Below are positions 1,358 to 50,781 of a stretch of 64,000 nt of DNA, piece after piece. Position 1 is the first letter of the stretch; each line of letters begins with the position of its first letter. The DNA lies in contig NZ_QPJY01000010.1 of NCBI RefSeq assembly GCF_003337735.1, forward strand, positions 1-64,000, given 5' to 3'. Under the pieces are notes generated by a model. The model searched no databases and was not told where the DNA came from. It was given only the letters and a program-made list of their open reading frames with translations. This stretch comes from Thioalbus denitrificans. GTDB lineage: Bacteria; Pseudomonadota; Gammaproteobacteria; DSM-26407. A program made the translations under genes and the position numbers.

Positions 1358-1379
1358 ATCCCCGGATGAGGTGGCAGTG

Positions 1380-2991: not shown

Positions 2992-3014
2992 GCCCGACCG
3001 ACCGGCACGGCAGC

Positions 3015-3183: not shown

Positions 3184-3288
3184 CTCGCCAGGGCGCCAAG
3201 GGATCAACCCGACTGCAAGCCTCCCAGGCGAAGCTCATGGGCAAGGATAACCGGTCACCCCCTGGCGCTCTTGGCGTCCTGGCGTGAG
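3184..3288. repeat. Inverted-arm intergenic element, 'cgccaggacgc' family
   Basis: Left arm tcgccagggcgccaaggga (3184-3202) and right arm around cttggcgtcctggcg (3269-3284) are inverted relative to each other, about 66 bp apart. It lies in the 400-bp convergent gap between the Gly/Asn-rich gene and the Sel1 lipoprotein gene. The rest of that gap (3056-3183 and 3289-3397) holds nothing I recognise. Confidence 0.75.
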
Positions 3289-3397
3289 TCGATAATTGTT
3301 CCTGCGCCCACGAGTCTGGCAGAAGCGCCTTCCGTTCCCGTGCGCCCCGGCCCGCAACCACGCAAGGGATCGCCCGCCGGGGCGCAGGACCGGGTGC

Positions 3398-4312: not shown

Positions 4313-4432
4313 TCCTTTCCTCCTGATGCATCCACAACAGCCGGGCGGCATATTGTGAAAAAAGGTGAACGTGGCCCACGATTATCCGGAACCACGGGCG
4401 GAGGGCAACCGCGGGGGTCACAACCCCGGGGA

Positions 4433-32874: not shown

Positions 32875-33189
32875 CTACTTGATGGCTTCTTCGGCCGAAT
32901 CGCTCTCGCCCTTGTTGTCGGTCCAACTCAGCTTCAGGGTATCGCCGGCCTTGGCGCCCTTGAACATGAAGGAGATGTAGGGGTTCTGGGAGATGGAGCC
33001 GCCCCACTCGGCCAGCATCACCTGCTTGCCGTTGTGCTCGCACACCACTTCCTGGATGAAGTGGGCCGGAATGGCCTCGCCGGTCTTCTTGTCCTTGCGC
33101 AGACCGGTCTCCATGGGGTGCTTCATCAGCGCCTTCACCGTGGTCACGTCGCCGCTCAGGCTGGCGCGCATTTTGATCGTGTTCGCCAT
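32875..33189 (-). CDS. soxZ: Thiosulfate oxidation carrier subunit SoxZ
   Basis: A 104-residue partner of SoxY. The SoxYZ heterodimer carries thiosulfate-derived sulfur through the periplasmic Sox cycle. Sequence hallmarks: IKMRASLSGDVTTVKALMKHPMETG, PAHFIQEV, and LKLSWTDNKGES near the end. As in other SoxZ there is no own signal peptide; it is exported with SoxY. It follows soxY by 58 bp and ends at a terminator. Confidence 0.96.
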   Translation of the reverse strand: MANTIKMRASLSGDVTTVKALMKHPMETGLRKDKKTGEAIPAHFIQEVVCEHNGKQVMLAEWGGSISQNPYISFMFKGAKAGDTLKLSWTDNKGESDSAEEAIK

Positions 33190-33247
33190 TGTCTTCGTTC
33201 CTCGTGTCGTGTTCGTATCAGCGGATTGCCGGGTTCGGTTCGGGTGA

Positions 33248-33718
33248 TCAGCCGCCGCAGCCGCCGATGGTCACCTTCACTTCCTTGCCCGCCTGGAAGG
33301 TCTTGCCGTTGGCCTGCACCACGGCGATGACGTTGGAGGTCTTGGCCATCTTGATACGGGTGGACACGTAGGGCTCCGCGCCCGCACCCAGCTTCCAGCT
33401 GGAGGTCAGGGGGGTGTTGTTGCCTTCCGCGAAGATGCTGATGCTCTCCACGCCGGACATCTTGGCGGTGACGCTCACCGGCACCACGGCGCCGTTCTCG
33501 GCGATGTCCGGGGCCTTGATCTCGATGTCACCGCTGGCGGCGGCGTCGCCCGCGCCGTAGAGGGCGCCCAGGGCGTCGGCGACGCTCTTGGCCTCGAAGG
33601 CGGACTGGGGCCACGCGGCCAGCACGGCGCGGGGAGTGAGGATGCCTGCGCCCAGGGCCAGAGCGACGGATCCGCTGGCCAGGGCACCTTTCAGGAATAC
33701 ACGGCGCTTCATGTTCAC
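33248..33718 (-). CDS. soxY: Thiosulfate oxidation carrier subunit SoxY
   Basis: A 156-residue periplasmic sulfur carrier. The N-terminus has a Tat signal (KRRVFLKGALASG), and the C-terminus ends with the swinging-arm motif GGCGG, whose cysteine carries the sulfur chain. GTG at 33718 sits 9 bp from GAGGAG; ATG at 33712 is the alternative. A near-consensus sigma54 promoter lies 60 bp upstream with two inverted repeats further up, next to a sigma54 activator gene. Other sox genes (soxA, soxX, soxB) are not in the window. Confidence 0.96.
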   Translation of the reverse strand: MNMKRRVFLKGALASGSVALALGAGILTPRAVLAAWPQSAFEAKSVADALGALYGAGDAAASGDIEIKAPDIAENGAVVPVSVTAKMSGVESISIFAEGNNTPLTSSWKLGAGAEPYVSTRIKMAKTSNVIAVVQANGKTFQAGKEVKVTIGGCGG

Positions 33719-33930: not shown

Positions 33931-35268
<1,338 letters not shown>

Positions 35269-35298
35269 GGTTATGAATCGGTTGATGGATTGGTTGAT

Positions 35299-35464
35299 GG
35301 ACAAGGGATAAAGGATAAAGGTTCTGGATCCAGGAATCAGGGCTCAGACGCAAAGCCCGAAGCGCGTTGGGCCGGATTCATCCGGCCGGCCAGGGCGACA
35401 AGGCCGGCGCCGTTGTGCGGATGAATCCGCACCTGATGTCTACAATCCTTGTCCCTTGTCCAAA
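35299..35464. repeat. Inverted-arm element, 'acaagggataaagg' family
   Basis: Left arm ggacaagggataaaggataa (35299-35318, plus agg) and right arm aatccttgtcccttgtcc (35444-35461) are inverted, about 120 bp apart. Two small hairpins between them share ggattcatcc / ggatgaatcc. It fills the gap between kinase and regulator genes. Confidence 0.65.
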
Positions 35465-35470: not shown

Positions 35471-37399
35471 CTATTCGGAACCGTCCGCGTCCGGCGGCAG
35501 CCGGATCGTCGCCACGGCGCCGCCGCCGGCGCGGTTCTCCAGGGTCAGGGTGCCGCCGTGGTGCTCCACGATGCCGAGCCCGATGGAGAGCCCCAGACCG
35601 GTGCCCTGCCCCACCGGCTTGGTGGTGTAGAAGGGGTCGAAGAGGCGGTCCCGGTCCGTCTCCGGCAGCCCCGGTCCGCGATCGGCCACGCTGATTACCA
35701 GCGCCCCGTCCCCGGCCCGCGCCGCCACCTCCACCATGCTCTCCGCGGGACTCGCCTGTACCGCGTTGAGCAGCAGGTTCACCAGCACCTGCTGCAGCTG
35801 GCCGCGATCCCCCACCAGTTCGAGGCCGGGCGCCGACCCGGCCTGCAGCCGCACCCGGGCACGGGCAGCCACCTGGCGGGCCAGGTCGAGGGTCTCCTCC
35901 AGCCACGGCCCCACCTCGAAGCGCTCGCGCCGCGGCGGCACCTGGCGGGCGAAGTTGAGGATGTCGCGCACGATGCGCGAGGCGCGCAGGGTCTCCTCAC
36001 GGAGATCGCGCAGGTCCTGGCGTGCCCGCTCGGCCCCCTCCGGCAGGCCGCGCTCGGCCAGCTTGGCCAGCTGCAGGATATTGTTCAGGGGATTGTTGAT
36101 CTCGTGGCCGATGCCGGCGGCCAGCTGTCCGACGCTGGCGAGCTTGGCGCTCTGCGTGGCCATCCGCTCGGCATGGTCCCGCTCCTGGCGCGCCCGCTCC
36201 AGGGTGTCGGCCATGTAGTTGAAGGACTCCTCCAGCTCCCGCACCTCGTCCATCCCCCCCACCGCGACCCGCCGCCGGCGGTCGCCGTCGGCGAACGCCT
36301 TGAGCCCGGCGGCGAGGCGCACCACCGGCGCGGCCACCGTGCGCGCCGCGGCGGTGCTGAACAGCAGCGCCAGCAGCACCGCCAGCCCGGCGAAGGCCCA
36401 GATGGCCAGGCGGATGCCGGCGAAGGGCGCCCCCAGGGCCTGCAGGTCCACTCCCATGGCCACCACCCAGCTCACCAGCTGATCCGGGTAGGGCAGGAAC
36501 TCGGTGTAGTAGACCGCGCGGCCGGCGCCGCGGTCCTCCACCAGGCCGAAGGGCCGTTCCGCCACCGCCCGCGACAGTCGCCCGCCGAGCACGCCGTCCA
36601 TGTGCTCCGCGGGGGTCTTGGGATCGGAGAAGCGGCTCCCGCCGGCGTCGTCGAACAGCAGCACCCCGTCCCGGGCCGGGTCGTCGGGGTTGAGCTCGGC
36701 GATGAGCAGCTGGCCCTGGTAGACCCGCGGGGCGAAGTCGAGAATGTGGTCGATGTGCTCGCCGCGGATGTTCACCGCCAGGTAGCCCAGCCGCTCCCCC
36801 TCCGCCTCCAGCGGCAGGATGTAGTCCAGCAGCGGGAGACTCTGCCCCGCCTCCCGGCGCGCGATCCGGCTCTGGGGCAGCAGCGTCACCGTGACCTCCC
36901 CCGCCGGCAGCGCCTCCAGCCCGGCCACGAACTCGGCGTTGTTGAGCTCCACTTCGGCGTAGGGATAGCTCTCGATGCCGTCGAAGACGTTGGGGCTGCG
37001 GCGGCGGTTCTCCACCTTGACCAGGGTGTTGGCGCTGCGGTCCAGCACCCGGATGATGGCGAAGCCGGGAACGATGCCCTGGAAGGTGCCCAGGAACCCG
37101 GCCAGCCGCGCCGTGCGCTCGAAGAAGTCGGGGTGCAGGTCGCCGCGGGCGGCGGTGGCCATCACCGGCAGGTAGTCCTGCAGGGCCGGAACGGTGGCCA
37201 GCCCGCGCAGGATCTCCTGGTCGCTCTGCAGCCGGCGGCTGATCTCGCCCACCACGGTGTTGAGGGTGGCGCCGATGTCCTCGGCCACCCCCTCGCGGTA
37301 GACCACCTCGCTGTAGCGGGTCGCACCGAGGGTGAGTGCCGTCAGCGGCACCACGGTGGCGAGCAGGATCCAGAGCAGCAGATGGGTCTTCAGGCGCAC
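35471..37399 (-). CDS. Membrane sensor histidine kinase
   Basis: A 642-residue kinase. TM1 is about 7-26; a large periplasmic dCache-like sensor follows (30-325). TM2 is about 328-352. HAMP is about 350-405 (LKAFADGDRRRRVAVGGMDEV), and HisKA has the H-box GIGHEINNPLNNILQL. HATPase has NAVQA (N box), DRGPGLPE and GTGLGLSIG. It probably phosphorylates the adjacent sigma54 activator. The ligand is unknown; a sulfur compound is a guess from the soxYZ context. Confidence 0.92.
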   Translation of the reverse strand: MRLKTHLLLWILLATVVPLTALTLGATRYSEVVYREGVAEDIGATLNTVVGEISRRLQSDQEILRGLATVPALQDYLPVMATAARGDLHPDFFERTARLAGFLGTFQGIVPGFAIIRVLDRSANTLVKVENRRRSPNVFDGIESYPYAEVELNNAEFVAGLEALPAGEVTVTLLPQSRIARREAGQSLPLLDYILPLEAEGERLGYLAVNIRGEHIDHILDFAPRVYQGQLLIAELNPDDPARDGVLLFDDAGGSRFSDPKTPAEHMDGVLGGRLSRAVAERPFGLVEDRGAGRAVYYTEFLPYPDQLVSWVVAMGVDLQALGAPFAGIRLAIWAFAGLAVLLALLFSTAAARTVAAPVVRLAAGLKAFADGDRRRRVAVGGMDEVRELEESFNYMADTLERARQERDHAERMATQSAKLASVGQLAAGIGHEINNPLNNILQLAKLAERGLPEGAERARQDLRDLREETLRASRIVRDILNFARQVPPRRERFEVGPWLEETLDLARQVAARARVRLQAGSAPGLELVGDRGQLQQVLVNLLLNAVQASPAESMVEVAARAGDGALVISVADRGPGLPETDRDRLFDPFYTTKPVGQGTGLGLSIGLGIVEHHGGTLTLENRAGGGAVATIRLPPDADGSE

Positions 37400-37492: not shown

Positions 37493-38812
37493 TCAGCGCC
37501 CGATGCGGTAGTGGGTGTCGAGGTACTCCAGCAGGGTGGTGCGCTCGGCCTCGGTGAGCGGCACCACGTGGCGGATGCCCATGTAGGTGTCCATCAGCCC
37601 CAGGCTCGGGCGCCAGTCGCTCTTGCGCGCCAGCAGGATGCGCTTGGCGTCGTGGCAGGCGAGGCAGCGCTCGCGCAGCAGCCGCGCGCCCTCGCTCTCG
37701 GCCGCCGCCAGCTTGCCGCTGGCGAGCGCCGCGGCGCGCTCGGCGTCCACCTCCGCCTTGCGGCGGATGATGCTGGCGAAGCGCAGGTAGCAGACCTCGC
37801 CCCGCTCCACCCGCTCCACCCCGCGCCGGGCGTCCACGTTCACCAGCTGCTCGGTGAACACGCCCGCGGGGCTCAGGCGGTTGATGTTGTAATTGTAGGT
37901 CTCGGAGAAGAGCACTCCCCCGGCGCGGCTGAGCGCCATGGCGAAGGGTCCGCCGGTGTCGCCCGGCAGGGGATACTCCCGGAGCGTGCCCTCCGCGTCG
38001 AGGCGGCCGATGAGGTTGCGGGTGTTGTCGATGAACCAGAGCACCCCCTCCTCGTCCAGGGCCATCTGCTGGACGAAGGACTCGGCGGGAAGGGGGAAGC
38101 GGGTGAGGGTGCCGTCGGGATCGAGGCGCTCGATGCCCTGGCGGCAGCGGTCCGAGAACCAGAGCCGGCCGGCGGGATCGGGGGTGATGTTCATGGGGCA
38201 GCTGCCGGCGCGGCGCAGCAGCTCGCGGCGGGTCCCGTCGCGGCCGAGATGGACGATGCGCCCGGCCGCCTGGTCCATGCCGCCCTCCTCCACGGCCGGC
38301 TCCAGGACGGTGAGCCACACCCCGCCGTCGGCGGCCGGCGCCATGGCGGTGGGCCAGCCCCGCTCGATGATGTAGTTGCGGATGGCGCCGTCCGGGTCGA
38401 GGCGCCCCACCCGTGCCGGGTCGTTGCCCTCCAGGAACCAGACGCCCTGCTCGCCGTCCACCCAGATGCGCCAGGGGTGGGGATGGTGGCCCGCCAGCGG
38501 GTACTCGGTGATGCGCCCGTCGGGCGCGAGGCGGCCGAGCTTGCCGCCGTACATCTCCACGAACCAGAGGTTGCCCGCCCCGTCCAGGGCGAGGTCCGCC
38601 GGCTCCGCCGCCGCCGTGGGCAGGGGGTAGGCGGTCACCGTGCCGTCGGGGGCGAGGCGCGAGACGGCGTTGTTGTCCCCCTCGGTGAACCAGACCCCGC
38701 CCTCGGCGTCCTCCACGAAGGCGTAGGAGCCGAAGGGCCGGCACGCCTCGGCGTTCGCCGCCGCCAGCAGCAGGGCCCCCAGCAGCAGCCATCCCGCAAA
38801 TCTTCCGTTCAT
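37493..38812 (-). CDS. Vgb/NHL-type beta-propeller fused to a c-type cytochrome domain
   Basis: A 439-residue exported protein: signal peptide (GWLLLGALLLAAANAEA), then about seven propeller blades with repeating GVWF/NLWFVE/GRLDPDG motifs as in virginiamycin B lyase-like proteins. A helical linker follows, then a C-terminal heme site ERCLACHD (Cys383, Cys386, His387) with Met candidates downstream (GLMDTYMG). The heme places it in the periplasm with a redox role. Its substrate is unknown, and streptogramin lyase activity is unlikely. AGGAGG precedes the ATG. It is 93 bp upstream of the sensor kinase on the same strand. Confidence 0.85.
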   Translation of the reverse strand: MNGRFAGWLLLGALLLAAANAEACRPFGSYAFVEDAEGGVWFTEGDNNAVSRLAPDGTVTAYPLPTAAAEPADLALDGAGNLWFVEMYGGKLGRLAPDGRITEYPLAGHHPHPWRIWVDGEQGVWFLEGNDPARVGRLDPDGAIRNYIIERGWPTAMAPAADGGVWLTVLEPAVEEGGMDQAAGRIVHLGRDGTRRELLRRAGSCPMNITPDPAGRLWFSDRCRQGIERLDPDGTLTRFPLPAESFVQQMALDEEGVLWFIDNTRNLIGRLDAEGTLREYPLPGDTGGPFAMALSRAGGVLFSETYNYNINRLSPAGVFTEQLVNVDARRGVERVERGEVCYLRFASIIRRKAEVDAERAAALASGKLAAAESEGARLLRERCLACHDAKRILLARKSDWRPSLGLMDTYMGIRHVVPLTEAERTTLLEYLDTHYRIGR

Positions 38813-39062: not shown

Positions 39063-40955
39063 TCAGAAGTTCCAGTTGAGCTCCGCCCGCAGCAGACGCC
39101 CCTCGTCGCGCCAGAAGAAGCCGCTGCGGTAGCGGCGGTCGAAGAGGTTGTCGCCGGCCAGGGTCAGCTCGAAGTCCCCGAGGCGCCCCACCAGGGTGGC
39201 GTCGAGGGTGGCGTAGGCCTCCTTGCGCCAGTCGTGGCCCGCCGCGTCGGTCCCGGTGTTGGCCTCGTCGGTCCAGCTGGCCGCGACAAAGCGGGCCAGC
39301 AGCCGTCCCGACCAGCGCCCGGCGCCGCTCCATTCCAGCCCCAGGTTGAGCTTGTGGCGGGGCATGTCCGGCAGTTCGTTGCCCACGTAGGCGGGGTGCG
39401 CCGCGTCACGGGTGATGCGGGTGCGGTTGAAGGTGTAATTGAGCGTGGCGTCCCAACCCGGGCCCAGCGCCCGGCGCGCCTCCAGCTCCAGGCCGTTGGA
39501 CTCGGCCGCGCCGATGTTCTGGTACTGGCGCACCACCGGGGTGCCGTAGTCCACGATGAGGGGACCGATCTTGTCGCGCCAGCGGGTGTGGAAGGCGGTC
39601 GCCTTGAGGGTCGCGCCGGCGGCGGTCTCGTGGGCCAGGGTGAGATCGACCGTCAGCGAGTGCTGCGGCGAGAGCTCCGGGTTGGGCAGGAACCAGCTCG
39701 CCTCGTTCAGCTCCGTGTAGTAGAGCTGGCCGGGGGTGGGGGGCAGGAAGCCGGTGCCCACGGAGGCGCCCAGGCCGGTGCGCGGGGAGAGGCGCCAGTC
39801 GAGGGCGGCCTTGCCGTTGAGCGCCCGGAGGTTGACCGCGTCGCCGCTGAAGGCGGCCGGCTCGGAGGCGGCGTTGTAGACCTCGATGCCGTGGTAGCGG
39901 TAACGATCGTGGCGCAGTCCCAGGGTGAGCCGCACCGGCTCCGCCAGCGCGCCCTCCCAGCCGGCGGCCAGGGCCAGATTGTCGGTGGTGGCGCGCAGCC
40001 GGAAGGACTCGCTGCCGCCGGGCTCGTCGAGAATGCGATCCTCGCCCCGCTCGCGGCTCGCCGAGAGCGTGGCGGTCAGCGTGCCCCGGGCCAGATCGAG
40101 ATCCGCCCCCAGCTCCCCCTCGCCGGTCCGGCTGTCGGTGAAGAAGCGCAGCGCCGGCTCCAGTCCCGCCCCGGCGAGACCGGTGCCGGCATCCTTCAGC
40201 GCCTCGTCGGCATAATCGCGCCAGCCGAGGCGCCCGTCGATGCGCAGTCCCGGATGCGGCTCCCAGCGCCCGCTGGCCCGCAGCGCCGTCTCGCGATCGT
40301 CCCACCACCAGTGGGGACGCCCCAGGTTGGCCAGGTTGTTGCGGTGCTTGAGGTTCAGCTCCAGCGCCGCGCCCGCGCCGCGCCAGCCGGCGGTGGCGTC
40401 GATCAGGGTCTTCTCGTAGCGCTCCTCCTCCACCGTCACGTTGTAGGCGTAGGGGGAGTCGGTCACCCGCCGGAAGCCGTCCACCAGCCGGTACTCGGCC
40501 AGGCCGCTGAAGGAGAGGGCCCCCGCGGCGCGGCTGCCGGCCAGGCGCCCGAAGCGGCTGCCCGAGGAATCGACCCCGGCGGTGAGGCTGCGGCGGCCCT
40601 CGGCGCCCGCCCGCCGGGTGGTCACCACCACCGCGCCGCCCATGGCGTCGGCGCCGAAGCGGGCGGAGGCCGCCCCGCGCCGGATCTCCACCCGCTCCAC
40701 CTGCTCCGGGCGCACCTGGCCCATCTCCTCCACGGTGACCGTGAAGCCGTCCAGCACGAACACCACCCCGCGCACCCCGCGCATGGTGACGTTGCCGCCG
40801 GTCACGTCGAGCCCCACCCGCGAGCGCAGCAGGGTGACGAGATCCGCCGGCCGCTCGCGGGCGATCTCCGCGGCGGTGATGACCGTCACCGCCCCGTTCT
40901 CCGCCACCGCCAGCGGCGCGGCCAGCAGCAGCCACAACCCCAGCCAGCGTCTCAC
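39063..40955 (-). CDS. TonB-dependent outer-membrane receptor (RiPP cluster)
   Basis: A 630-residue TonB-dependent receptor: signal peptide (WLGLWLLLAAPLAVA), plug domain (about 25-125, RGVRGVVFVLDGFTV, RIEIRRGAASARFGADAMGG-like), and a beta-barrel ending in the aromatic LRAELNWNF. There is no STN signalling domain. GTG at 40955 overlaps the stop of the ABC permease gene (GTGA), so it is the last gene of the cluster and translationally coupled to the exporter. Likely substrate is the mature cluster peptide or its metal complex (inference). Confidence 0.88.
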   Translation of the reverse strand: MRRWLGLWLLLAAPLAVAENGAVTVITAAEIARERPADLVTLLRSRVGLDVTGGNVTMRGVRGVVFVLDGFTVTVEEMGQVRPEQVERVEIRRGAASARFGADAMGGAVVVTTRRAGAEGRRSLTAGVDSSGSRFGRLAGSRAAGALSFSGLAEYRLVDGFRRVTDSPYAYNVTVEEERYEKTLIDATAGWRGAGAALELNLKHRNNLANLGRPHWWWDDRETALRASGRWEPHPGLRIDGRLGWRDYADEALKDAGTGLAGAGLEPALRFFTDSRTGEGELGADLDLARGTLTATLSASRERGEDRILDEPGGSESFRLRATTDNLALAAGWEGALAEPVRLTLGLRHDRYRYHGIEVYNAASEPAAFSGDAVNLRALNGKAALDWRLSPRTGLGASVGTGFLPPTPGQLYYTELNEASWFLPNPELSPQHSLTVDLTLAHETAAGATLKATAFHTRWRDKIGPLIVDYGTPVVRQYQNIGAAESNGLELEARRALGPGWDATLNYTFNRTRITRDAAHPAYVGNELPDMPRHKLNLGLEWSGAGRWSGRLLARFVAASWTDEANTGTDAAGHDWRKEAYATLDATLVGRLGDFELTLAGDNLFDRRYRSGFFWRDEGRLLRAELNWNF

Positions 40956-41713
40956 CAGAGGTAGTCCCCCAGGCGGCGGCGGAAGCTCCAGGCGGCGAGC
41001 GGCGCCAGCAGGACCACCGCCGCCGCCAGCCCCAGCAGGATGGCGCCCGTGGCCAGGTGCGGCTGGGACGGGTCGTAGGCGCCGCGCAGCCCCTCGGCGA
41101 GGTAGGTGGTGGGAAGCAGCAGGGCCAGCTGGCTGAAGGGAGGGCCGAGCATGGCGTGGGAGTAGAAAGTGCAGCCGAAGAAGGTCATGGGCATGAGCAG
41201 GAAGGAGAACAGCTCCTGGCCGCGGTCGGGGGTGGCCGGCAGCAGCAGCACCACCAGGCTGAGCAGGGAGAAGAACGCGGAGCCGCCCACCGCCAGGGCC
41301 AGGGGCAGCAGCAGCCCCTCCGGACGCAGCCCCAGGATGGCCCACACCAGCAACGCCACGATGGTGGCGCTCAGGGTGCCGTAGAGGACGCCGCTGACCA
41401 CCTTGGCCACCAGCAGCTGGCGCAGGGAGACAGGCGCCAGCAGCCACCCCTCCAGGGTGCGGAAGTAGTAGCCGGAGACCAGGGTGCCGCCCACGGCGCC
41501 GAAGGGAGCGGTCATGATGGCGATGGCCACGATCCCCGGTCCCATCACCGCCGCGTAGCCGGGACCGTTGCCGCCGGCGAGCATGCCGCCCACCACGTAG
41601 CCGAAGACGTAGAGGTAGACCGCCGGCTGCACCACCAGCCGCGCCAGGGTCAGGCGCAGGGAACCGAGGTCCGCCAGCAGGTGGCGATGGAGCAGGGCCA
41701 GGGTGAAGTGCAT
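40952..41713 (-). CDS. ABC-2 type exporter permease (RiPP cluster)
   Basis: A 253-residue inner-membrane protein with six hydrophobic segments and the ABC-2 signature region (LLPTTYLAEGLRGAYDPSQP). It follows its ATPase by 2 bp and overlaps the TonB receptor start. NodJ/DrrB-type permeases like this export lipids, drugs or peptides. Here the cluster peptide is the likely cargo. Confidence 0.9.
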   Translation of the reverse strand: MHFTLALLHRHLLADLGSLRLTLARLVVQPAVYLYVFGYVVGGMLAGGNGPGYAAVMGPGIVAIAIMTAPFGAVGGTLVSGYYFRTLEGWLLAPVSLRQLLVAKVVSGVLYGTLSATIVALLVWAILGLRPEGLLLPLALAVGGSAFFSLLSLVVLLLPATPDRGQELFSFLLMPMTFFGCTFYSHAMLGPPFSQLALLLPTTYLAEGLRGAYDPSQPHLATGAILLGLAAAVVLLAPLAAWSFRRRLGDYLW

Positions 41714-41715: not shown

Positions 41716-42441
41716 TCAGCCCTCCCCCACGGCGCGGCGGAAGGCCGCCTCCACCACCCGGTCGGTGCGCACCCCGGCCGGCCGCGCCACTTCCTGCAGC
41801 CGCCCGTCATGGAGCACCGCGGTGCGATCGCAGAGACGTTCCACCTCGTCGAGATCGTGGCTGGAGAGGAACACCGTGCCGCCTCCGGCGCGGAATTCGG
41901 TGATGGCCCGCCACACCCGCGTGCGCACCGCCGGGTCGAGGCCGCTGGTGGGCTCGTCCAGCACCAGCAGCCGTGGCGCGGTGAGGAACGCCTTGGCCAG
42001 CATCACCTTGCGCCGGGTGCCGCCCGAGAGCTGCATGATGCGCGCGTCGGCCTTTGCTGCCAGTTCCAGGGTCTCCAGCCACCGCTCCACCCGTGGGGCG
42101 AAATCCCGCCGCGGCAGGCCGGCGTAGCGGCAGTGGAACTCGAGGTTGCGGCGCACGGTGAGCTCGTTGTCGAGGTTGTTCTCCTGGGGCACCACGCCGA
42201 GCCGGCGCTTCACCGCCACCGCCTCGCGGCGCGGATCGCGGCCCAGCACCCGCACCCGCCCGGCCGTGGGGCGCAGCAGGGTGGTGATCACCTTGATGAG
42301 GGTGCTCTTGCCGGCGCCGTTGACCCCCAGCAGGCCGAAGATCTCCCCCTCCGCCACCGTGAGGCTCACCCCGTCCAGGGCGCGCAGCCCGCCCGGGTAG
42401 TCGCGCACCAGCCCCTCGATGTCGATGGCCGCCACCGTCAC
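41716..42441 (-). CDS. ABC-2 exporter ATPase (RiPP cluster)
   Basis: A DrrA/NodI-type ATPase of about 241 residues: Walker A GVNGAGKST, Q-loop VVPQENNL, signature LSGGTRRK (Thr in place of the usual Glu/Gln), Walker B LLVLDEPTSGLDP and H-switch SSHD. GTG at 42441 overlaps the preceding stop (GTGA). GTG at 42435 with GGAGGGG 5 bp upstream is an alternative. It pairs with the permease at 40952-41713. Confidence 0.92.
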   Translation of the reverse strand: MTVAAIDIEGLVRDYPGGLRALDGVSLTVAEGEIFGLLGVNGAGKSTLIKVITTLLRPTAGRVRVLGRDPRREAVAVKRRLGVVPQENNLDNELTVRRNLEFHCRYAGLPRRDFAPRVERWLETLELAAKADARIMQLSGGTRRKVMLAKAFLTAPRLLVLDEPTSGLDPAVRTRVWRAITEFRAGGGTVFLSSHDLDEVERLCDRTAVLHDGRLQEVARPAGVRTDRVVEAAFRRAVGEG

Positions 42442-43586
42442 CCCTCCACCAGGGCGCACAGGGGCGCCGGCAGCTCCCCGACCGGCGCCACCTCATCCAG
42501 CAGCGCCTGCAGCCGGGCCGTGGTCTCGCGCTTGAAGCGGCAGAAGGCGCCGTCGGCGCCCGCGATGCCGCCACCGCCCGCCGCCGCCACCGCCGGGCAC
42601 TCGCCGCCGCAAAGATGGCTCGCCTCGCAGGCCCGGCAGGCGGGGCGGGCCGCCACGGTGTTGGCCGCCAGGCGCGCCTGCACCCGGGCGAATTCGGGTC
42701 CCGGAAAGTCCCCATCGTGGACGCAGCCCATGCGGAACGCCGCGTTGCCCACGAAATGGTCGCAGGGGTAGACGGCGCCGTCGGCGGCCACCGCCACCAC
42801 CGCCTCGCCGGCGGCGCAGGGGCGCTCGCGCACCGTGCCCTGCACGCGATGGGCCAGCAGCGGGTAGAGGGCCTCGCCTCCCAGGGGGACATGACCGGTG
42901 AGGGCGCGGGCCAGGGCCTCGCGGTGGAGGGTGTCGAAACCCGCCACCAGGGCGGCCAGGGCCGGTTCCGGCCAGGGGGTGGCGCCGAAGTCGGGCACCA
43001 GGCGCAGGGAGACCGGCCCCAGGCCCGCCAGGTGTCCGGCGCTATCGGCCAGCCGTGGGGCGCTCTCCGGGGTCACCGTGGCGCGCAGCCCGAAGGGGAC
43101 GCCGGCGGCCCGCAGCCGCTCCAGCCCGGCGCACACCCGGGCGTGGACGCTCCCCCGGCCGCGGCGAAAGCGCCGGGCACGGTCGGTGACCGCCGCCTCG
43201 CCGTCCAGGCTCACCGCCAGGAAGTCCACGTGGCGGGTGACGAACTCCAGCGCCCGCCCCTCCAGCAGGGTGCCGTTGGTGGTCAGGGCGAAACGGACCT
43301 CCACCCCGGCCGTCTCCCCGAGGCGCCGCCCCAGCAGCACCGCCGCCTCCAGCAGCGGCAGGTTGAGCAGCGGCTCGCCGCCGAAGAAGGAGAGGGTGAG
43401 GCGCGGACCGGCCAGGGGCAGCAGCCGCTCCAGGGCGCGCTTCAGGGTCGTTGCCGCCATGCGTTGGGCGGGAGCGCCATAGCTGCCGCCGTCCGCATAG
43501 CAGTAGCCGCAGCGCAGGTTGCAGGCCTGGGCCACCAGCAGGGTGACGTTGGCGAGGCGGGCGGGCCTGGTGGCGGTGCCGGACAC
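42438..43586 (-). CDS. Radical SAM/SPASM peptide-modifying enzyme 1
   Basis: A 382-residue radical SAM protein without an N-terminal extension. The [4Fe-4S]-SAM motif is CNLRCGYCY (Cys22, 26, 29). FFGGEPLLN is the GGE SAM-amine motif, and SLDGEAAVTDR is typical of SPASM enzymes. The C-terminal SPASM domain has the cysteine series C-AAGE...VYPC and CRACEASHLCGGEC plus a last Cys, enough for two auxiliary clusters. GTG start with GGGGAGGG 6 bp upstream, directly after the second enzyme gene. Role: probably installs thioether or other crosslinks in the 46-residue peptide. Confidence 0.9.
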   Translation of the reverse strand: MSGTATRPARLANVTLLVAQACNLRCGYCYADGGSYGAPAQRMAATTLKRALERLLPLAGPRLTLSFFGGEPLLNLPLLEAAVLLGRRLGETAGVEVRFALTTNGTLLEGRALEFVTRHVDFLAVSLDGEAAVTDRARRFRRGRGSVHARVCAGLERLRAAGVPFGLRATVTPESAPRLADSAGHLAGLGPVSLRLVPDFGATPWPEPALAALVAGFDTLHREALARALTGHVPLGGEALYPLLAHRVQGTVRERPCAAGEAVVAVAADGAVYPCDHFVGNAAFRMGCVHDGDFPGPEFARVQARLAANTVAARPACRACEASHLCGGECPAVAAAGGGGIAGADGAFCRFKRETTARLQALLDEVAPVGELPAPLCALVEG

Positions 43587-43588: not shown

Positions 43589-44908
43589 TCAGCCCTCCCC
43601 GGCGATCAGTGACTTGAGCCGGGTCCGGCGCCCCGGGTCCCGCAGGATGGCGGCAAGGCCCCGGAGCACGTGCTCCAGCCGCCGGCGCTCCAGGTCGCAG
43701 TGGCGGGGATCGGGCTGCGCCGGGTCGCCGTGGAGGAAGTGACCGTGGGCATAGCAGCCGCCGCCGCAGAGGTAGCGGGCGAAGCAGCCGCGGCAGGGTT
43801 CGGCCGCGTCCACCCCCAGCACGGCGAAACGCGCCGCCACCCCGCCGAACTCGGCCGACGGCGCGGCCTCTTCCACGTGGCCCATGCGGAAGGCACCCAC
43901 GCCGGCCAGGCCGTGGCAGGCATAGAGGCTGCCGTCGGCGGCCACGGCGAGATCGCGCCCGGCGTGGCAGTGGCGGTGGACCCGCTGGCGGCGCAGGATG
44001 CGCCCCATCAGCCCCAGCGCCTCGCCGTGCTGCAGCGGCGCCTCCAGGGCCCGCTCCGGGTCGCAGTGGATGGCGAGGTAGTCGGCCACGTAGCGCTCGT
44101 GCGCCGCATCGCTCAGGCGTGCCGGATGGCCCGGCGGGGCGAAGACCGGCGTCAGCCCCACCGCGTCGGCGCCGAGGGCGTTGAGGTAGGCGGCGGTTTC
44201 CCCGTAGCGTTCCGCGCCGGCCACGGTGAGGGTCCCCTTCACCGTGACCCGCGGCCCCTTGAGCGTGCGCAGGGCGCGCAGGGCAGCCACCGCCCGCCGG
44301 TGGCTGCCGGTGCCACGGCGGCTGCGGCGGTGGCGGTCGTGCACCGCCGGCGGACCGTCGAGGCTGACGGTGACGGTGGCGAAACGCGCCAGCAGCGCCA
44401 GCGCCCTGGCGTCCACCAGGGTGCCGTTGGTGGTCATGTGGAAGGCGATGCGGAAGCCGCGCTCGGCGGCCAGCCGCTCGCCGAAGGCCACCGTCCGCTC
44501 CACCACCGCGCGGTTGAGCAGCGGCTCGCCGCCGTAGAAGCTCACCGCGTAGTGCTCGCCCGGCTCGGTGAAGAAGCGGCGCAGGGCCGCCTCCGCCACT
44601 GCCGGGCTCATGCGCTGCACACTCCCCGCCGCCCTGCCGCCGTCGTTGTAGCAGTAGCTGCAGGCGAGGTTGCAGTCCTGGGCCACGTACAGGCACAGGC
44701 TGGTGGGTGCCGCGGGCAGCGGCGGCGCCGGGCGCAGCCGCTCGTGACGTTCCGCCTCCGCCGCCAGCAGCGCCGCGCCCCCGGGGCCGAGATCGGAGAC
44801 GCTCAACGGCGACCGCAGCCCGGGCGGGAGCCGGTAGAGGGAGAAGGTGGCGGGGAAGAAGAGGATGTCCTCCCCCTCACCGCGGATGATGTGCGTCTGA
44901 CTCAGCAC
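43589..44908 (-). CDS. Radical SAM/SPASM peptide-modifying enzyme 2
   Basis: A 439-residue radical SAM/SPASM enzyme. A 70-residue N-terminal extension (IIRGEGEDILFFPATFSLYR) resembles the one in enzyme 3 and may bind the precursor leader. The cluster motif is CNLACSYCY (Cys79, 83, 86); YGGEPLLN and SLDGPPAVHDR follow. SPASM cysteines are HCHAGRD...YAC and CRGCFARYLCGGGC with a final Cys. GTG at 44908 has GGAGG 6 bp upstream; the gene overlaps enzyme 3 by 32 bp, so the two are coupled. Confidence 0.9.
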   Translation of the reverse strand: MLSQTHIIRGEGEDILFFPATFSLYRLPPGLRSPLSVSDLGPGGAALLAAEAERHERLRPAPPLPAAPTSLCLYVAQDCNLACSYCYNDGGRAAGSVQRMSPAVAEAALRRFFTEPGEHYAVSFYGGEPLLNRAVVERTVAFGERLAAERGFRIAFHMTTNGTLVDARALALLARFATVTVSLDGPPAVHDRHRRSRRGTGSHRRAVAALRALRTLKGPRVTVKGTLTVAGAERYGETAAYLNALGADAVGLTPVFAPPGHPARLSDAAHERYVADYLAIHCDPERALEAPLQHGEALGLMGRILRRQRVHRHCHAGRDLAVAADGSLYACHGLAGVGAFRMGHVEEAAPSAEFGGVAARFAVLGVDAAEPCRGCFARYLCGGGCYAHGHFLHGDPAQPDPRHCDLERRRLEHVLRGLAAILRDPGRRTRLKSLIAGEG

Positions 44909-46346
44909 CGCTCGCCTCCGGCCAGGTGGTGGTTCCGTAGCGGTGGGAGATGGCCCCCGCCAGCCGCTCCTTCAGGGCGTCGCGCCGGGCCGGGTCGGCC
45001 ATCACGGCGGCCAGCTCCGGCAACAGCGCCTCCACCACCGTCCTGATGTAGAGGCAGTGACGCTCCACGGGCGCGGCCAGGTCGCCGTGCTGCGACCAGG
45101 CATGCTTCACGCAGGCGCCGCCGCAGAGGTAGCGGGCCCAGCAGTCGCGGCAGGCGGGCCGATCGTCCACGGTCAGGTCGATGAAGCGCTGGCGCAGCTG
45201 CTGGTACCGCGGCCTCCGGGTGAGCTCCGGGTCGGCCACGCTGCCCATGCGGAAGGACTCCTCCCCCACGAAGCGGTGGCAGGGGTAGACGTCGCCCTCG
45301 GCGGTCACCGCCAGCAGGTTGCTGCCGGCGTTGCAGTGGTAGAGGGCGTGGCTGCGGGAGATGAGGTAGAACAGGATGTAGAAGGGGTATTCGAAGGCCA
45401 CCGCCTGGTCGCCCTCCAGGAAGCTCTTCAGTCCCTTGCGGTTGACCTCCACGATCTGGGCGAGGAATTCGCGGTACTGGGCGTCGTCCACGTGCAGGGG
45501 GTGCCCGGGGGGCACGTCCACGTCCACCAGGCCGATGCCCCCGGAGCCGAAGGCGTCCAGGTGGTCGAATATTTCCTCCACCCGGTCGTAGCTGCGGCTG
45601 GTGACGATGCTGCGGAAGGCCCAGTTGAAGCGCCCGTCTCCGGTGAGGCGGCGGATGTTGCGCTCGGCGGCGGCGTGGACGCTGTGGCCGGACTTGCTCA
45701 GGCGCTGGGCGTCGTTGATCTCCGGCGGGCCGTCGAGGCTGAAGGTGACGTTGTCGATGTGGTCGCGGAAGAACTCGCGGATCTTCTCGTTGTAGATGGT
45801 GCCGTTGGTGACAATGCCCAGCGACACGTCGGCGCGGCCCCGCTCCCGGTGCTCGCCGCAGAGCTCGGCGGTGCGGCGCATGAGGGGGAAGTTCATCAGC
45901 GGCTCGCCGCCGAAGAAGGTGAGGAAGTGCTTGCCGTCGCGCTCGCCGTAGAAGGTGGCGAAGGTCTGCTCCAGGGTCTCCTCGCTCATGTTGCAGCGGT
46001 TGCCGTACTCCCCCTCGTCACCGTAACAGTAGCTGCAGCGCAGGTTGCAGTCCTGGCAGACGAACAGGTAGAGGCCGGCCACCTTGTCGGTGATGTCCGC
46101 CGGTGCGCGCAGGGGCTTGGCCGGCGGGGCGCGGCGGATGTACTCGGCGATGAAGCGTCCGGCCGCGGCCAGCCGCTCCCGCTCCGCTTCGTCCGCCGGC
46201 TCGATGCCGGCCTCCCGCCGCGCCAGCACCTTGCCGGTGCCGGCGTCGATGGCGAACACCGCCACCGGGAGGGTGAGAAAGAGGTACCAGCGGCCCTCGT
46301 GTTCGAAAGCGTGGAAATCCCCGGCGCGGGGCAGTGTCTCTTGCAT
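44877..46346 (-). CDS. Radical SAM/SPASM peptide-modifying enzyme 3
   Basis: A 489-residue radical SAM/SPASM enzyme, first enzyme after the precursor. The N-terminal 90 residues (FEHEGRWYLFLTLPVAVFAI) look like a peptide-recognition extension. Cluster motif: CNLRCSYCY (Cys100, 104, 107), with an additional Cys97 and Cys118 nearby. FFGGEPLMN and SLDGPPEINDAQR follow, and the SPASM domain has HCNAGSN...VYPC and CRDCWARYLCGGAC. The YCYGDEGEYG stretch recalls maturases of selenobiotic/geopeptide-type systems; that comparison is from memory. It begins 80 bp after the precursor stop. Confidence 0.9.
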   Translation of the reverse strand: MQETLPRAGDFHAFEHEGRWYLFLTLPVAVFAIDAGTGKVLARREAGIEPADEAERERLAAAGRFIAEYIRRAPPAKPLRAPADITDKVAGLYLFVCQDCNLRCSYCYGDEGEYGNRCNMSEETLEQTFATFYGERDGKHFLTFFGGEPLMNFPLMRRTAELCGEHRERGRADVSLGIVTNGTIYNEKIREFFRDHIDNVTFSLDGPPEINDAQRLSKSGHSVHAAAERNIRRLTGDGRFNWAFRSIVTSRSYDRVEEIFDHLDAFGSGGIGLVDVDVPPGHPLHVDDAQYREFLAQIVEVNRKGLKSFLEGDQAVAFEYPFYILFYLISRSHALYHCNAGSNLLAVTAEGDVYPCHRFVGEESFRMGSVADPELTRRPRYQQLRQRFIDLTVDDRPACRDCWARYLCGGACVKHAWSQHGDLAAPVERHCLYIRTVVEALLPELAAVMADPARRDALKERLAGAISHRYGTTTWPEASGAESDAHHPR

Positions 46347-46426: not shown

Positions 46427-46567
46427 TCAGAAGCGGGGGCCGCAGCCGCACTTCATGCCACCCTGGGTGCCGCAGCAGGCACAGGCGGTCATCTCGTGGA
46501 ACTCATCCTCGAATCCTTCCAGGGGCTCGAACTCGATCTCGACGATCTTCATTTCGCTCAGTTCCAT
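46427..46567 (-). CDS. Candidate RiPP precursor peptide, cysteine-rich
   Basis: A 46-residue peptide. Residues 1-26 form an acidic leader (MKIVEIEFEPLEGFEDEFHE). The core is TACACCGTQGGMKCGCGPRF with cysteines 29, 31, 32, 40 and 42. Five cysteines in a CxCC-x7-CxC layout next to three radical SAM/SPASM genes is the classic sign of a modified peptide. AAGGAG lies 6 bp before ATG 46567, strong support for translation; the longer open frame to 46651 has no ribosome site. The core has no close family I can name. Thioether formation and metal binding are inferences. Confidence 0.75.
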   Translation of the reverse strand: MELSEMKIVEIEFEPLEGFEDEFHEMTACACCGTQGGMKCGCGPRF

Positions 46568-46665
46568 AGTGTTCTCCTTAACGGTTGGGTGCCCTGTGGC
46601 CGGGCGAAAACGGTCGGTGCCGCCGCCGGGGCGGCGCCTCGAATCGGTCAATCACGGATCAGCCT

Positions 46666-48957
46666 TCAGAACCGGGCCGCCAACTCCAGCCACCAGCTGC
46701 GGCCGTCCAGGCGCTCGTACCAGAAGCCGTAGCCGGTCCCGTCGAAGACGTTGTCGACGGCGAGCGAGGCGACCCACTCGGGCCCGGCGCCGACCCGGAA
46801 GCTCCGCGACAGCTTCACGTCGGCCAGGAAGTGGCTGTCGGCCCGGGAGTACCCGGCGTTGCTGTCCTCGAAATAGCGCTCGCCCACGTAGCGGCCGATG
46901 ACCTGGGCGGTGAGCAGTTCCGGGTTGTCGTAGGCGAGCCCGATGTTGAACTTGTGCCTGGGCGTGTTCGCGGTCCGGTTGCCCTCCAGGGCGGGATCGG
47001 AGGGGTTCTCGGTGATCTCCGAGTCGGTGTAGGTGTAGTTGAAGAAGGGCTGCCAGTACCGGCCGAGGCGGGTGTTCAACTCCAGCTCGAAACCGAGCAC
47101 CCGCGTCTCCCCGAGGTTCTGGAACTGGGACTTGGTCCCCGTGCCGGTCTCCACTTCACCCCGGGCGATCTTGTCCTTGAAGGTGGTGTGGTAGAGCGCG
47201 GCGCTGCCGTCGAGGAAGCCGGCCAGCGACTCGAACTTGAGTCCCGTCTCGTAGGAGACGGCGGTCTCGGGCTCGAGGTCCGGGTTGTCGGCCCACATGC
47301 CGCCGCTGCGGTACTTGAGGCTGTTGGGGGCGGGGATGTAGGCGGTACCCGCGGAGGCATACAGGGCGAGCCCGTCGCGGAGCCGATAGCTGAGGCCCGC
47401 ACGGGGCGTGAAGACCGCATCGTCCGCGTCGGGCTTGGCGGTTCCGTAGGCCTCGTAGTCGTAGTGCTCGTAGATGTCATAGCGGCCGCCGAGGGTCAGG
47501 GTGAGGCGGTCGAAGCGGTGCTCATCCTGAGCGAAGAGGCCATAGGTCCTGCTCCTGTGGCTCATCTCGCCCCACAGCTCGCCGTCGGGCCCGTACTCGC
47601 TGCTCGACCAGCGGCCATCCCACCAGACGCCGCCCAGGGTCAGGGTGTTGCCCTCTAGCGGGTGGAAATCGAGCTGGAGCTCGGCGCTGAAGGATTCCTC
47701 GTCCTCCCGGTCGTGGTAGAACTCCTCCAGCGTGCCCAGGTACTCGTAGTAGTCGTAGGTTCGCCTGGGCGCGGAGACATCGGAGTAGGCCAGCTTCGCC
47801 TTGAGCAGCTGCCCGCCGGCGAAGTGGTGGTTCAGCGCGGCGTCGAGCAGGGTGCCCTCCTGCTCGATCCGGTAGTTGGGGTGGCCTCCCAGCACCGCGC
47901 CCTCGTTCTCGAAATGGTGCACCCCCAGGGCGAGATCCGTGGCCTCGCCGGGCCACCAGGTCAGCCGGGCACTGACCTTCCGCTCGCGGGAGTCCCGGCC
48001 GTCCAGATCCCGGTAGTCGTAGTCGAACCAGTCGCGCCAGGGGGGCGGCGTCCCGGTGAGCTGAACGAAGCCGTCCGACTCATGCGCGCTGGCGGCCAGG
48101 AACAGGTCGAAATCCCCGGCCGTTCCGCCGGCCGACAGGGACAGCCCCCGGGCGGCGTGGGAGCCCGCCCCCGCACTGATGCGGGCGAAGGGTTCCCCGG
48201 CGCCCCGCTTGGTGATGACGTTGATCACCCCGCCCATGGCGCTCGGGCCGTAGAGCACCGAACCGGGGCCGCGGACCACCTCGATGCGATCGATGCTCTC
48301 CGGGCTCACCGCGTACCACAGGTAGCGACGGGTGATGGCCAGCGGCTCCACGGGCATGCCGTTGAGCAGCGACTGGGTGGTCGTCCCCGCGAAGCTCTGC
48401 CCCAGGCCGCGCAGGACGGGAATGCCAGCGGCCGCCGAGCCGGACATGTAGGTGAGATCCACCCCCGGCAGGCTGCGCAGCAGATCCTCGGGCTTGGCCG
48501 CGTGTTGCCGCGCTATCTCCTCGGCGGTGACCACCGACACGCTGGCGGGCACATCGATGACCTCGCGTTCCGTGCGGGTGGCCGTCACGGTGATCAGCCG
48601 CTGGGCGCCGGGAGCCGCCCCGGGGGCAGCCGCCGCGCTCTCCAGCCCCGGCCCCACCGCATAGCTCCCGGCGGCGGTGGCGCGGAATCCCAGGCCGGTG
48701 CCCGCCAGCAGGCGCCGCAGGGCCTGCTCCGGGGTGTAGCGTCCCTCCAGCCCCGGCGTCTCCAGCCCCGCCACCGCCTCGGCCGGGAACAGGATCTGGA
48801 TCCCCGCCTGGGCGGCCAGTGACTGCAGGGCGCTGCCGAGCGGCTGCGGGCCGATGCGCAAGGCCTCGCCATCGGCGGCCAGGGCCACGACCGGCTGCAG
48901 CATCCACAGGCAGAGCGCCAACAGCACACCCGCTGCCGTCCTCATTCTTTTTCTCAT
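46666..48957 (-). CDS. FecA-type TonB-dependent receptor with STN signalling domain
   Basis: A 763-residue outer-membrane receptor. After the signal peptide comes an STN domain (about 40-105, IGPQPLGSALQSLAAQAG and YTPEQALRRLLAGTGLGF) that signals to FecR-type proteins. Next are a TonB-box region (RLITVTATRTEREV), a plug (RIEVVRGPGSVLYGPSAMGG) and a barrel ending WWLELAARF. ATG 48957 has GAGGG 5 bp upstream. It is divergent from fecI/fecR-like genes and 98 bp upstream of the precursor on the same strand, so it may be the first gene of the peptide operon. Confidence 0.93.
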   Translation of the reverse strand: MRKRMRTAAGVLLALCLWMLQPVVALAADGEALRIGPQPLGSALQSLAAQAGIQILFPAEAVAGLETPGLEGRYTPEQALRRLLAGTGLGFRATAAGSYAVGPGLESAAAAPGAAPGAQRLITVTATRTEREVIDVPASVSVVTAEEIARQHAAKPEDLLRSLPGVDLTYMSGSAAAGIPVLRGLGQSFAGTTTQSLLNGMPVEPLAITRRYLWYAVSPESIDRIEVVRGPGSVLYGPSAMGGVINVITKRGAGEPFARISAGAGSHAARGLSLSAGGTAGDFDLFLAASAHESDGFVQLTGTPPPWRDWFDYDYRDLDGRDSRERKVSARLTWWPGEATDLALGVHHFENEGAVLGGHPNYRIEQEGTLLDAALNHHFAGGQLLKAKLAYSDVSAPRRTYDYYEYLGTLEEFYHDREDEESFSAELQLDFHPLEGNTLTLGGVWWDGRWSSSEYGPDGELWGEMSHRSRTYGLFAQDEHRFDRLTLTLGGRYDIYEHYDYEAYGTAKPDADDAVFTPRAGLSYRLRDGLALYASAGTAYIPAPNSLKYRSGGMWADNPDLEPETAVSYETGLKFESLAGFLDGSAALYHTTFKDKIARGEVETGTGTKSQFQNLGETRVLGFELELNTRLGRYWQPFFNYTYTDSEITENPSDPALEGNRTANTPRHKFNIGLAYDNPELLTAQVIGRYVGERYFEDSNAGYSRADSHFLADVKLSRSFRVGAGPEWVASLAVDNVFDGTGYGFWYERLDGRSWWLELAARF

Positions 48958-49242
48958 GGTTTCCCTCGCGTCAATCACAGGCCGAACTGTCCGGTCTCAA
49001 ACACGTACGACGAATAGGGCTATCAACCCCTGACCTGATCGCGGGAAATTTTTTTCGGGCTCGGGGTTATGCCCCGGCGACTGAGTTATTTGGCGCAGCG
49101 ACGCACGGCCGGCGCCGGCCGGCGGCGGTTTCATCGCGCATTTTTTCTGGCACCGGCCTTGCATCAGTCATGGGCCGGTGCGGACACCGCGACGCCGGGA
49201 AGCGCGGGTTGTCCGTGGCAAAGGAGCTGACCAGACGCCGCC
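48958..49242. promoter_or_regulatory. Divergent control region, STN receptor / fecI-like gene
   Basis: 285 bp between divergent genes. A candidate ECF-type -10 (minus strand attcgtcgta, 49006-49015) with ggttgat about 16 bp further upstream could drive the receptor-peptide operon. An A/T-rich gggaaatttttttcggg at 49042-49058 is the most AT-rich point. No clear Fur box. Both assignments are tentative. Confidence 0.35.
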
Positions 49243-49761
49243 GTGAACCAGGACCGCAACCACACCCAGCGACTGCTGGCGCTCTATCGCGAGGCGCAGC
49301 GGGAGCTGCACGCCTTCCTCGCCGCCCGGTTGCACAACCGGGAGCAGGCGGCGGATGTGGCCCAGGAGGCCTTCGCCCAGGTGCTGGCGGCGGGTGCGGA
49401 GGGAAGCGTGGCCGATCTGCGCGGCTACCTGTTCCGCACCGCGGCAAACCTCAGCGTGGACGAGCTGCGGCGCCGGGAGGTGCGCAACCGCCATGCCGCC
49501 ACCGCCGCCACGCTCGAGAACCCGGGCGGCCCGGACCCGGCCCGCACCCTCGCCGGCCGGGAACAGCTGGCGCTGCTCCGGCAGGCCATCGACGAACTGC
49601 CCCCACGTTGCCGCGAGGTGTTCCTGCTGCACCGCTTCAGGGAGCTGAGCTACCCGGAAATCGCCGCCCAGCTGGGGATCTCCCGCAACATGGTCGAGAA
49701 GCACATCGTGCGGGCACTCGCCCACTGCCGGGCCCGGCTGGAGGGCGGTGGCAGCGGGTGA
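49243..49761 (+). CDS. FecI-like ECF sigma factor
   Basis: A 172-residue ECF sigma factor: region 2 (LHAFLAARLHNREQAADVAQ, then EAFAQVLA) binds the -10, and region 4 (IDELPPRCREVFLLHRFREL followed by SYPEIAAQLGISRNMVEKHI) binds the -35. The region 4 wording is typical of the iron-starvation FecI group. GTG start at 49243 with AGGAG upstream. The fecR-like gene follows by 33 bp. Likely targets are the divergent STN receptor and peptide genes. Confidence 0.92.
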   Translation: MNQDRNHTQRLLALYREAQRELHAFLAARLHNREQAADVAQEAFAQVLAAGAEGSVADLRGYLFRTAANLSVDELRRREVRNRHAATAATLENPGGPDPARTLAGREQLALLRQAIDELPPRCREVFLLHRFRELSYPEIAAQLGISRNMVEKHIVRALAHCRARLEGGGSG

Positions 49762-49794: not shown

Positions 49795-50781
49795 ATGCCC
49801 TGCACACCCGCCCCCCATACCCGAAGCGACCCTGGCGCCGCGGCAATCCGCTGGTTCGCCCGCCTGCGTGCCCCGGATCTGCGCCCGGCGGAGCGGGAAG
49901 CGTTCAGAAGCTGGCTCGCGGCGGCGCCCGAGCACGGGGAGGCATACCGCTCCGTGGAAGCGATGTGGCGGGACCTGGGCGCGCTGGAAGCGCAGCACCC
50001 GGCCCCCGCGGCCCGGCCCGGCGTGCCTGACCGGGTCCGGCGCAGACGCTGGATGGCCGCCCTCGCGGCGGGGCTCGCCGCGGCGGGGCTCGCCGGCGGC
50101 TGGCTGCTGCCCGGCCTGATGGGTGATCCCGCCCGGCTGCACACGGCCCGGGGGGCGCAGGAGGTGGTGCGGCTGGCCGACGCCACGGTGGTTCACCTCA
50201 ACACCGCCACCGAGCTGCGCCTCGACTACACCCCGGCCCGGCGGCGCCTGGTCCTGGAACAGGGCGAGATCTTCCTCGAGGTGGGACGGGATCCGCGCCC
50301 CCTGGTGGTGGAGGCCGCCGGCGGCCGGATCCGGGACATCGGCACCCGCTTCGGCGTGCGCATCGGCGCCGGCGGCACTACGGTCACCGTCACCGAGGGC
50401 GCCGTCGCGGTCCGCCTGGCCGGCGCGGAGGCGAGCGCCGGCGCCGGGGAACGGCTCGACTACTCCGCCGACGGGGGGCTGGGAACGCCCCGCCCGGCCG
50501 CCCTGGAGCGGGCCACGGCCTGGCTGCGGGGGCTGCTCCTGTTCGAGGCCACCCCCCTGGCGGAGGTGGTGGAGGAGCTGAACCGCTATCGCGCCGCCCC
50601 GGTGCGGCTGGGGGATCCCGCCCTCGCCGGGCTGCGGGTCAGCGGAAGATTCTCCATCGGGGATTCGGACGGGCTGCTGCGGACCCTGGAGGCAGTCCTG
50701 CCGCTGACGGTCGTCCAGCGTGCCGACGGCTCCGTGGCGCTGCTGGCGCGGGCCGCCCCCGGCAGCGGCGACGGGACGTGA
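49795..50781 (+). CDS. FecR-like anti-sigma/sigma regulator
   Basis: A 328-residue FecR family protein. The N-terminal cytoplasmic DUF4880 region (AIRWFARLRAPDLRPAEREA) contacts the sigma factor. One membrane segment follows (about 86-110, WMAALAAGLAAAGLAGGWLL). The FecR domain is about 115-205 (DIGTRFGVRIG, VTVTEGAVAVRL). A C-terminal secretin/STN-like part (LLLFEATPLAEVVEELNRYR) completes it. It relays receptor occupancy across the inner membrane to the FecI-like factor. Confidence 0.92.
   Translation: MPCTPAPHTRSDPGAAAIRWFARLRAPDLRPAEREAFRSWLAAAPEHGEAYRSVEAMWRDLGALEAQHPAPAARPGVPDRVRRRRWMAALAAGLAAAGLAGGWLLPGLMGDPARLHTARGAQEVVRLADATVVHLNTATELRLDYTPARRRLVLEQGEIFLEVGRDPRPLVVEAAGGRIRDIGTRFGVRIGAGGTTVTVTEGAVAVRLAGAEASAGAGERLDYSADGGLGTPRPAALERATAWLRGLLLFEATPLAEVVEELNRYRAAPVRLGDPALAGLRVSGRFSIGDSDGLLRTLEAVLPLTVVQRADGSVALLARAAPGSGDGT

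Follow-up and report, generated by a model that had tools for sequence, protein, structure and literature searches.

A 46-codon open reading frame on the minus strand of the window (the whole 64,000-nucleotide stretch of Thioalbus denitrificans DNA that we analysed) almost certainly encodes the precursor of a RiPP system built by radical-SAM enzymes: a short conserved precursor gene stands beside its maturase, and the sequences suggest that the maturase and two further radical-SAM enzymes modify the peptide core. By analogy with the methanobactin operon, we see about an even chance that the product is a RiPP, made by radical-SAM enzymes, that acts as a secreted metallophore for a soft metal, most likely Cu(I). 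The precursor belongs to no family modelled in NCBIfam or Pfam, where it drew only meaningless weak matches, and no published description of it was found in the open-access literature, although a prior description elsewhere is possible. The peptide family is thus apparently undescribed, and it adds to the RiPPs a family whose core is short and almost invariant, which has three dedicated radical-SAM enzymes and which is unnamed in the models and open-access literature searched.

The precursor gene and its conservation

The open reading frame (46427–46567, minus strand; 46 codons plus stop) translates as MELSEMKIVEIEFEPLEGFEDEFHEMTACACCGTQGGMKCGCGPRF, with an acidic leader at residues 1–26, a core at residues 27–46 (TACACCGTQGGMKCGCGPRF) and cysteines at positions 29, 31, 32, 40 and 42. 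A Shine–Dalgarno sequence, AAGGAG (46574–46579, minus strand), ends 7 nt 5′ of the ATG, and an A/G-rich equivalent occupies the same place in all precursor homologues. An earlier, sequence-only reading of this DNA had proposed just such a gene, a 46-residue precursor with these five cysteines, an acidic leader and a strong ribosome-binding site, and we recovered each of these features, with the conserved precursor adjoining radical-SAM genes. This is the sole ATG-started open reading frame of at most 80 residues in the window that carries at least five cysteines in its last 20 residues. Random first-order Markov sequence of the same composition yielded 0.13 such cysteine-rich frames per 64 kb, and none was preceded by a strong Shine–Dalgarno sequence in 60 trials. 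The precursor is present in one copy in the window's own genome, and differs from that of a same-genus twin by two synonymous and no nonsynonymous codon changes. Distant pairs mostly had more synonymous than nonsynonymous differences (for example, 17 versus 6 between loci L003 and L006), with pairs involving the window or L007 closer to balance. These counts indicate that the precursor is under purifying selection, and from this codon-level selection we infer that it is translated. Selection and the Markov control together rule out a chance open reading frame, and the precursor is a real gene because its homologues are conserved before the same enzyme gene.

The sequence-only reading had staked its case on conservation of the peptide beside the same enzyme genes, which we found in seven distinct genomes besides the window's (including Sulfuricella, Gallionellaceae, Rhodocyclaceae and another gammaproteobacterium) and in a same-genus near-twin, G001. 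Relatives of the first enzyme, rSAM1, with 60–63% identity, occurred in two Sulfuricella genomes, a Gallionellaceae genome, Accumulibacter 66-26, HGW-Gammaproteobacteria-1 and CTSoil_122, and a peptide homologue lay directly before rSAM1 in all six. A further carrier, G1170 (locus L073), is from the family to which the Accumulibacter genome belongs; the MAG STE_91 (L002/L050) has a peptide identical to that of G001 and may be the same genome. Within the family of carrier G751, the peptide and rSAM1 (E below 1e-200) were found in exactly the same three of 200 genomes. Outside the carriers, there was no convincing precursor match in 369 genomes sampled from the class and 398 from the phylum, in 399 genomes of the order of G752 or in 250 genomes of the family of G749. 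The precursor family is rare. Four weak precursor matches outside it (E 0.004–0.009), three of them with an internal stop, were taken as chance. We also rejected a plasmid- or phage-borne family, the precursor being absent from plasmids, and plasmids and phages showing only distant radical-SAM proteins.

Homologues of 41–47 residues, each with five or six cysteines, lie directly upstream of the same radical-SAM gene in loci L003–L008 and L073. In the numbering of the window's peptide, M6, I8, E10, F13, L16, E17, G18 and F23 are invariant, as are T27, A30, C31, C32, T34, Q35, G36, G37, C40, G41, C42 and G43 in the core. No homologue has a tryptophan, a tyrosine or an acidic residue in its core. 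Outside the window's genus, all homologues carry an extra leader cysteine (LEGC) where the window's peptide has Phe19. An alignment of homologues had been suggested as a check on the cysteines, and it upholds C31, C32, C40 and C42 as invariant but not C29, which is lost or moved, its equivalent being methionine in L005 and alanine in L007. The argument that an odd number of cysteines must leave a thiol free or bound to a partner therefore falls, because C29 is not conserved and the conserved core cysteines number four.

The enzymes and the conserved gene cluster

Three radical SAM/SPASM enzymes are encoded on the minus strand: rSAM1 (44877–46346), rSAM2 (43589–44908) and rSAM3 (42438–43586). 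Their CxxxCxxC motifs and all seven SPASM cysteines are invariant (in alignments covering seven loci for rSAM1 and six for rSAM3), and by these residues the enzymes look intact. They form three orthologous clades (support 100/99–100) apart from firmicute relatives, so the three enzymes are long established and are not interchangeable copies. rSAM1, 58–63% identical in its homologues, changes most slowly. It has a probable RRE-like domain at its N terminus (residues about 1–72), where three strands followed by helices are predicted over residues 11–72, an arrangement compatible with an RRE; rSAM3 lacks the N-terminal extension of rSAM1 and rSAM2. Sequence and fold searches both gave CteB (5wgg/5why) as the nearest solved structure to rSAM1, the full-length model of which (mean pLDDT 52 from 7 sequences) was used for fold class only. 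Among the matches listed, all three enzymes scored below the curated cut-offs of the maturase families.

The same gene order is kept in eight distinct loci: the ECF sigma factor and FecR, TonB receptor 1, the precursor and rSAM1–3, followed by an ABC ATPase, an ABC-2 permease, TonB receptor 2 and a protein combining a Vgb-like propeller with a heme domain (Vgb-heme protein). This order extends over up to eleven genes in eight distinct genomes. In four loci (the window, L005, L007 and L073) the regulators are divergent; elsewhere they are co-directional. Flanking genes are common only to L003, L004 and L008 and differ elsewhere, which indicates that the cluster travels or is passed on as one block. 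Most of what the cluster says about function comes from the regulators, the two receptors, the exporter and the Vgb-heme protein, none of which the sequence-only reading had mentioned.

The ECF sigma factor gene (49243–49761, plus strand) lies in a FecI-like position, divergent from receptor 1, and is followed by a FecR-type anti-sigma factor (49795–50781, plus strand; FecR plus DUF4880); the pair is present in every cluster locus. Receptor 1, of the FecA type (46666–48978, minus strand), has an N-terminal STN signalling domain in each of the seven loci scanned (the window and six homologues), and the cluster thus holds the three elements of FecIRA-type cell-surface signalling: ECF sigma factor, FecR anti-sigma factor and STN-domain receptor. 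Upstream of receptor 1, conservation points to a promoter-like element of the ECF type (49007–49033, minus strand; TCAGG...CGTCGT), as a CGTCTT-like box occurs there in every locus (CGTCTC in L006, CGTCGT in the window), with TCAGG ahead of it in five. Self-induction of the cluster is probable. Nearer the precursor, a conserved element, GCCCGGCCA (46597–46605, minus strand), lies 38 nt upstream of the ATG, a distance of 38–52 nt in homologous loci; it matches at nine of nine positions in five of the eight loci, at eight in two and at seven in one, and is a possible promoter or mRNA element. A search for structured RNA upstream gave no Rfam match, and no convincing Fur-like box was found there as evidence for iron.

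On the export side, the ABC transporter ATPase (41716–42459, minus strand) is of the drug/lipid-exporter type and closest to drug-exporter models (drrA), and the adjoining ABC-2 permease (40952–41713, minus strand) is 53–62% identical in homologues. Receptor 2 (39063–40955, minus strand) lacks an STN domain in the loci scanned and is found in seven of the eight loci. It is missing from L005 (14406–14700), where all other cluster genes are kept, which suggests that it is dispensable or located elsewhere. In L073 of G1170, the region ahead of the cluster (139–4463) contains several partial matches to TonB receptors, possibly remnants of receptor genes or a receptor array.

The last conserved gene (37493–38812, minus strand) encodes a secreted protein in which a VgbB-like seven-bladed propeller (TM 0.84 to 2z2n, by target length) precedes a C-terminal c-type heme domain with invariant C383xxC386H387 and M407. 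Its likeness to VgbB, virginiamycin B lyase, lies in the propeller fold; it differs from that enzyme in being secreted and fused to a heme-c domain. A His-rich loop of three to five histidines is present in seven of the eight loci and absent in the window; such loops often occur in metal-handling proteins. An NtrC-type sigma-54 response regulator (33931–35304, minus strand) and a histidine kinase (35471–37399, minus strand) adjoin the Vgb-heme gene. L008 likewise has a regulator and kinase downstream of its Vgb gene (37% and 34% identical), and stretches of a similar regulator occur in L003 and L004. SoxZ and SoxY genes (32875–33718, minus strand) near the cluster indicate that the host is probably a sulfur oxidiser.

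Possible functions of the product

The presence of an exporter, receptors and a sensor suggests a ligand that is released from the cell and later recovered, and the CC and CxC spacing together with the His-rich loop points to a soft metal. In the pathway that we propose, the acidic leader would be recognised by the RRE-like domain of rSAM1, and rSAM1–3 would modify the core A-C-C-x-T-Q-G-G-x-x-C-G-C-G, probably by forming thioether crosslinks from cysteine to nearby Thr, Gln, Gly or Ala carbons. The ABC pair would export the modified peptide, a protease would remove its leader and the TonB receptors would take up the metal-loaded form, with the STN domain of receptor 1 relaying a signal via FecR to the ECF sigma factor, which would switch on the cluster. 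The periplasmic propeller/heme-c protein would release the metal or process the peptide. Thioether crosslinking and soft-metal binding of the core are both plausible, but thioether formation would use up thiols expected to bind the metal. Also against this proposal, the His-rich loop is missing from the accessory protein of the window itself, heme, citrate and peptides are further ligands that FecIRA systems sense, and the conserved cluster contained no dedicated leader protease. C39-type double-glycine leader cleavage after TQGG was rejected, as there is no C39 protease in the cluster and the residues around GG fit poorly; tyramine excision of the spliceotide type was rejected because the peptide has no tyrosine.

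The heme domain allows an unlikely alternative, in which the peptide, once crosslinked, would serve as a small subunit or carry the cofactor of a periplasmic redox enzyme formed with the Vgb-heme protein, as in quinohemoprotein amine dehydrogenase (QHNDH). That domain weakly matches the heme domain of QHNDH alpha, QhpD (TIGR03906) is among the closest families to the radical-SAM enzymes, and QHNDH itself pairs a propeller and heme c with a thioether-crosslinked peptide. Yet no homologue has the tryptophan required for a CTQ cofactor, the radical-SAM score of 178 bits falls far short of the QhpD cut-off of 453, the precursor is about half the size of the QHNDH gamma subunit, and qhp operons are not known to include ECF, FecR and TonB genes. 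Another candidate product is a signalling or density-sensing peptide with no function beyond its detection by receptor 1, FecR and the sigma factor. Constant linkage of the regulators, the STN domain of receptor 1 and probable self-induction agree with such a role, which we nevertheless rate as quite unlikely, since a pure signal would make superfluous both the non-signalling receptor 2 (in seven of eight loci) and the periplasmic heme/propeller protein (in all eight).

The resemblance of the ATPase to drug-exporter models, and the antibacterial activity of several radical-SAM RiPPs, would fit a bacteriocin-like product exported by an ABC pair that also gives self-protection, with the TonB receptors as the entry route. 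We regard this as distinctly improbable: the core is nearly invariant across distant hosts, unlike those of bacteriocins, which typically diversify, no immunity gene is evident, and the uptake and induction genes are linked to the producer. An intracellular or periplasmic metal buffer of the metallothionein or bufferin kind, never re-imported, would share the CC and CxC spacing and the His-rich partner loop but is very improbable given two TonB receptors and a FecIRA-type sensor, which argue for uptake of an extracellular ligand, and a precursor with no Sec signal by inspection.

For the secreted metallophore, we hold copper specifically to be less likely than not, and the conserved cluster contains no copper-specific gene. 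Genes for nitrous-oxide reductase, a copper-dependent enzyme with a heavy demand for the metal, were found in all nine carrier genomes; in G001, G751 and G752 the matches that fall short of the model cut-off are TAT-type NosZ (936–1033 bits), and that in G749 is a contig-end fragment. Because the carriers are not independent, this pattern is only a hint of copper. Nitrous-oxide reductases of the TAT type and of the Sec type are both encoded in the window's genome (G000:C2:760785-762506 and G000:C4:208630-210435). Tentatively, the product could be a radical-SAM-made chalkophore that supplies copper to N2O reductase in denitrifying and sulfur-oxidising bacteria, and we would be equally tentative in calling it independent of the methanobactin enzymes while following the same logic of secretion, uptake and cell-surface signalling. 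If the metallophore proposal is true, copper carriers resembling methanobactin would have a second biosynthetic route, unrelated to the first, and copper acquisition would be tied to N2O-reducing groundwater and wastewater bacteria, in which copper supply can limit greenhouse-gas removal. The order of action of the three radical-SAM enzymes and their acceptor residues are directly testable.

Comparison with known systems

In QHNDH, which has a propeller and heme c, the gamma subunit is crosslinked by the radical-SAM enzyme QhpD and exported by an ABC transporter, and the crosslinked peptide contains thioethers. Maturation by QhpC–QhpD thus resembles our cluster in its QhpD-related radical-SAM enzyme, ABC exporter and heme-c and propeller partner, whereas our peptide is smaller, the cluster has TonB/FecIRA genes, and the missing tryptophan and sub-cut-off QhpD score set the precursor apart from QHNDH gamma. 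SCIFF/ranthipeptides (CteA–CteB, thermocellin) share a Cys-rich precursor and a full SPASM domain, with CteB, a SCIFF maturase that makes Cys–Thr thioethers, as the match nearest to our maturase in sequence and fold. They differ in that our cluster has three enzymes, proteobacterial hosts and a TonB/FecIRA setting; rSAM1 scored 180 bits against the TIGR03974 cut-off of 425, and SCIFF models did not match any member of the precursor family at E up to 1. Freyrasin-type ranthipeptides (PapA–PapB) likewise have rSAM/SPASM relatives and a Cys-rich core, but PapB requires a Cys-x3-Asp/Glu motif (PMC8172795), which our precursors lack along with any acidic core residue, and rSAM1–3 scored 205, 174 and 201 bits against the NF047865 cut-off of 340.

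The methanobactin operon combines a FecIRA-like triad, an exporter, a TonB receptor and a di-heme cytochrome partner (PMC3621798). Our cluster resembles it (Group I, Methylosinus; MbnIRT-A-B-C-M-H-P) in its small Cys-containing precursor and periplasmic heme protein (PMC3621798), in its exporter and TonB receptor, and in the ECF sigma/FecR/STN-receptor triad found in some methanobactin groups. The core sequences are unrelated, an ABC-2 exporter stands in place of a MATE exporter, and a single-heme Vgb propeller protein in place of the di-heme MbnH/MbnP. The MbnB/MbnC enzyme pair is absent from the conserved cluster, which instead has three radical-SAM enzymes, and this places it outside the methanobactins. 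Although the cluster lies beyond the defining features of SCIFF, PapB-type ranthipeptides and methanobactin alike, it may well work as they do.
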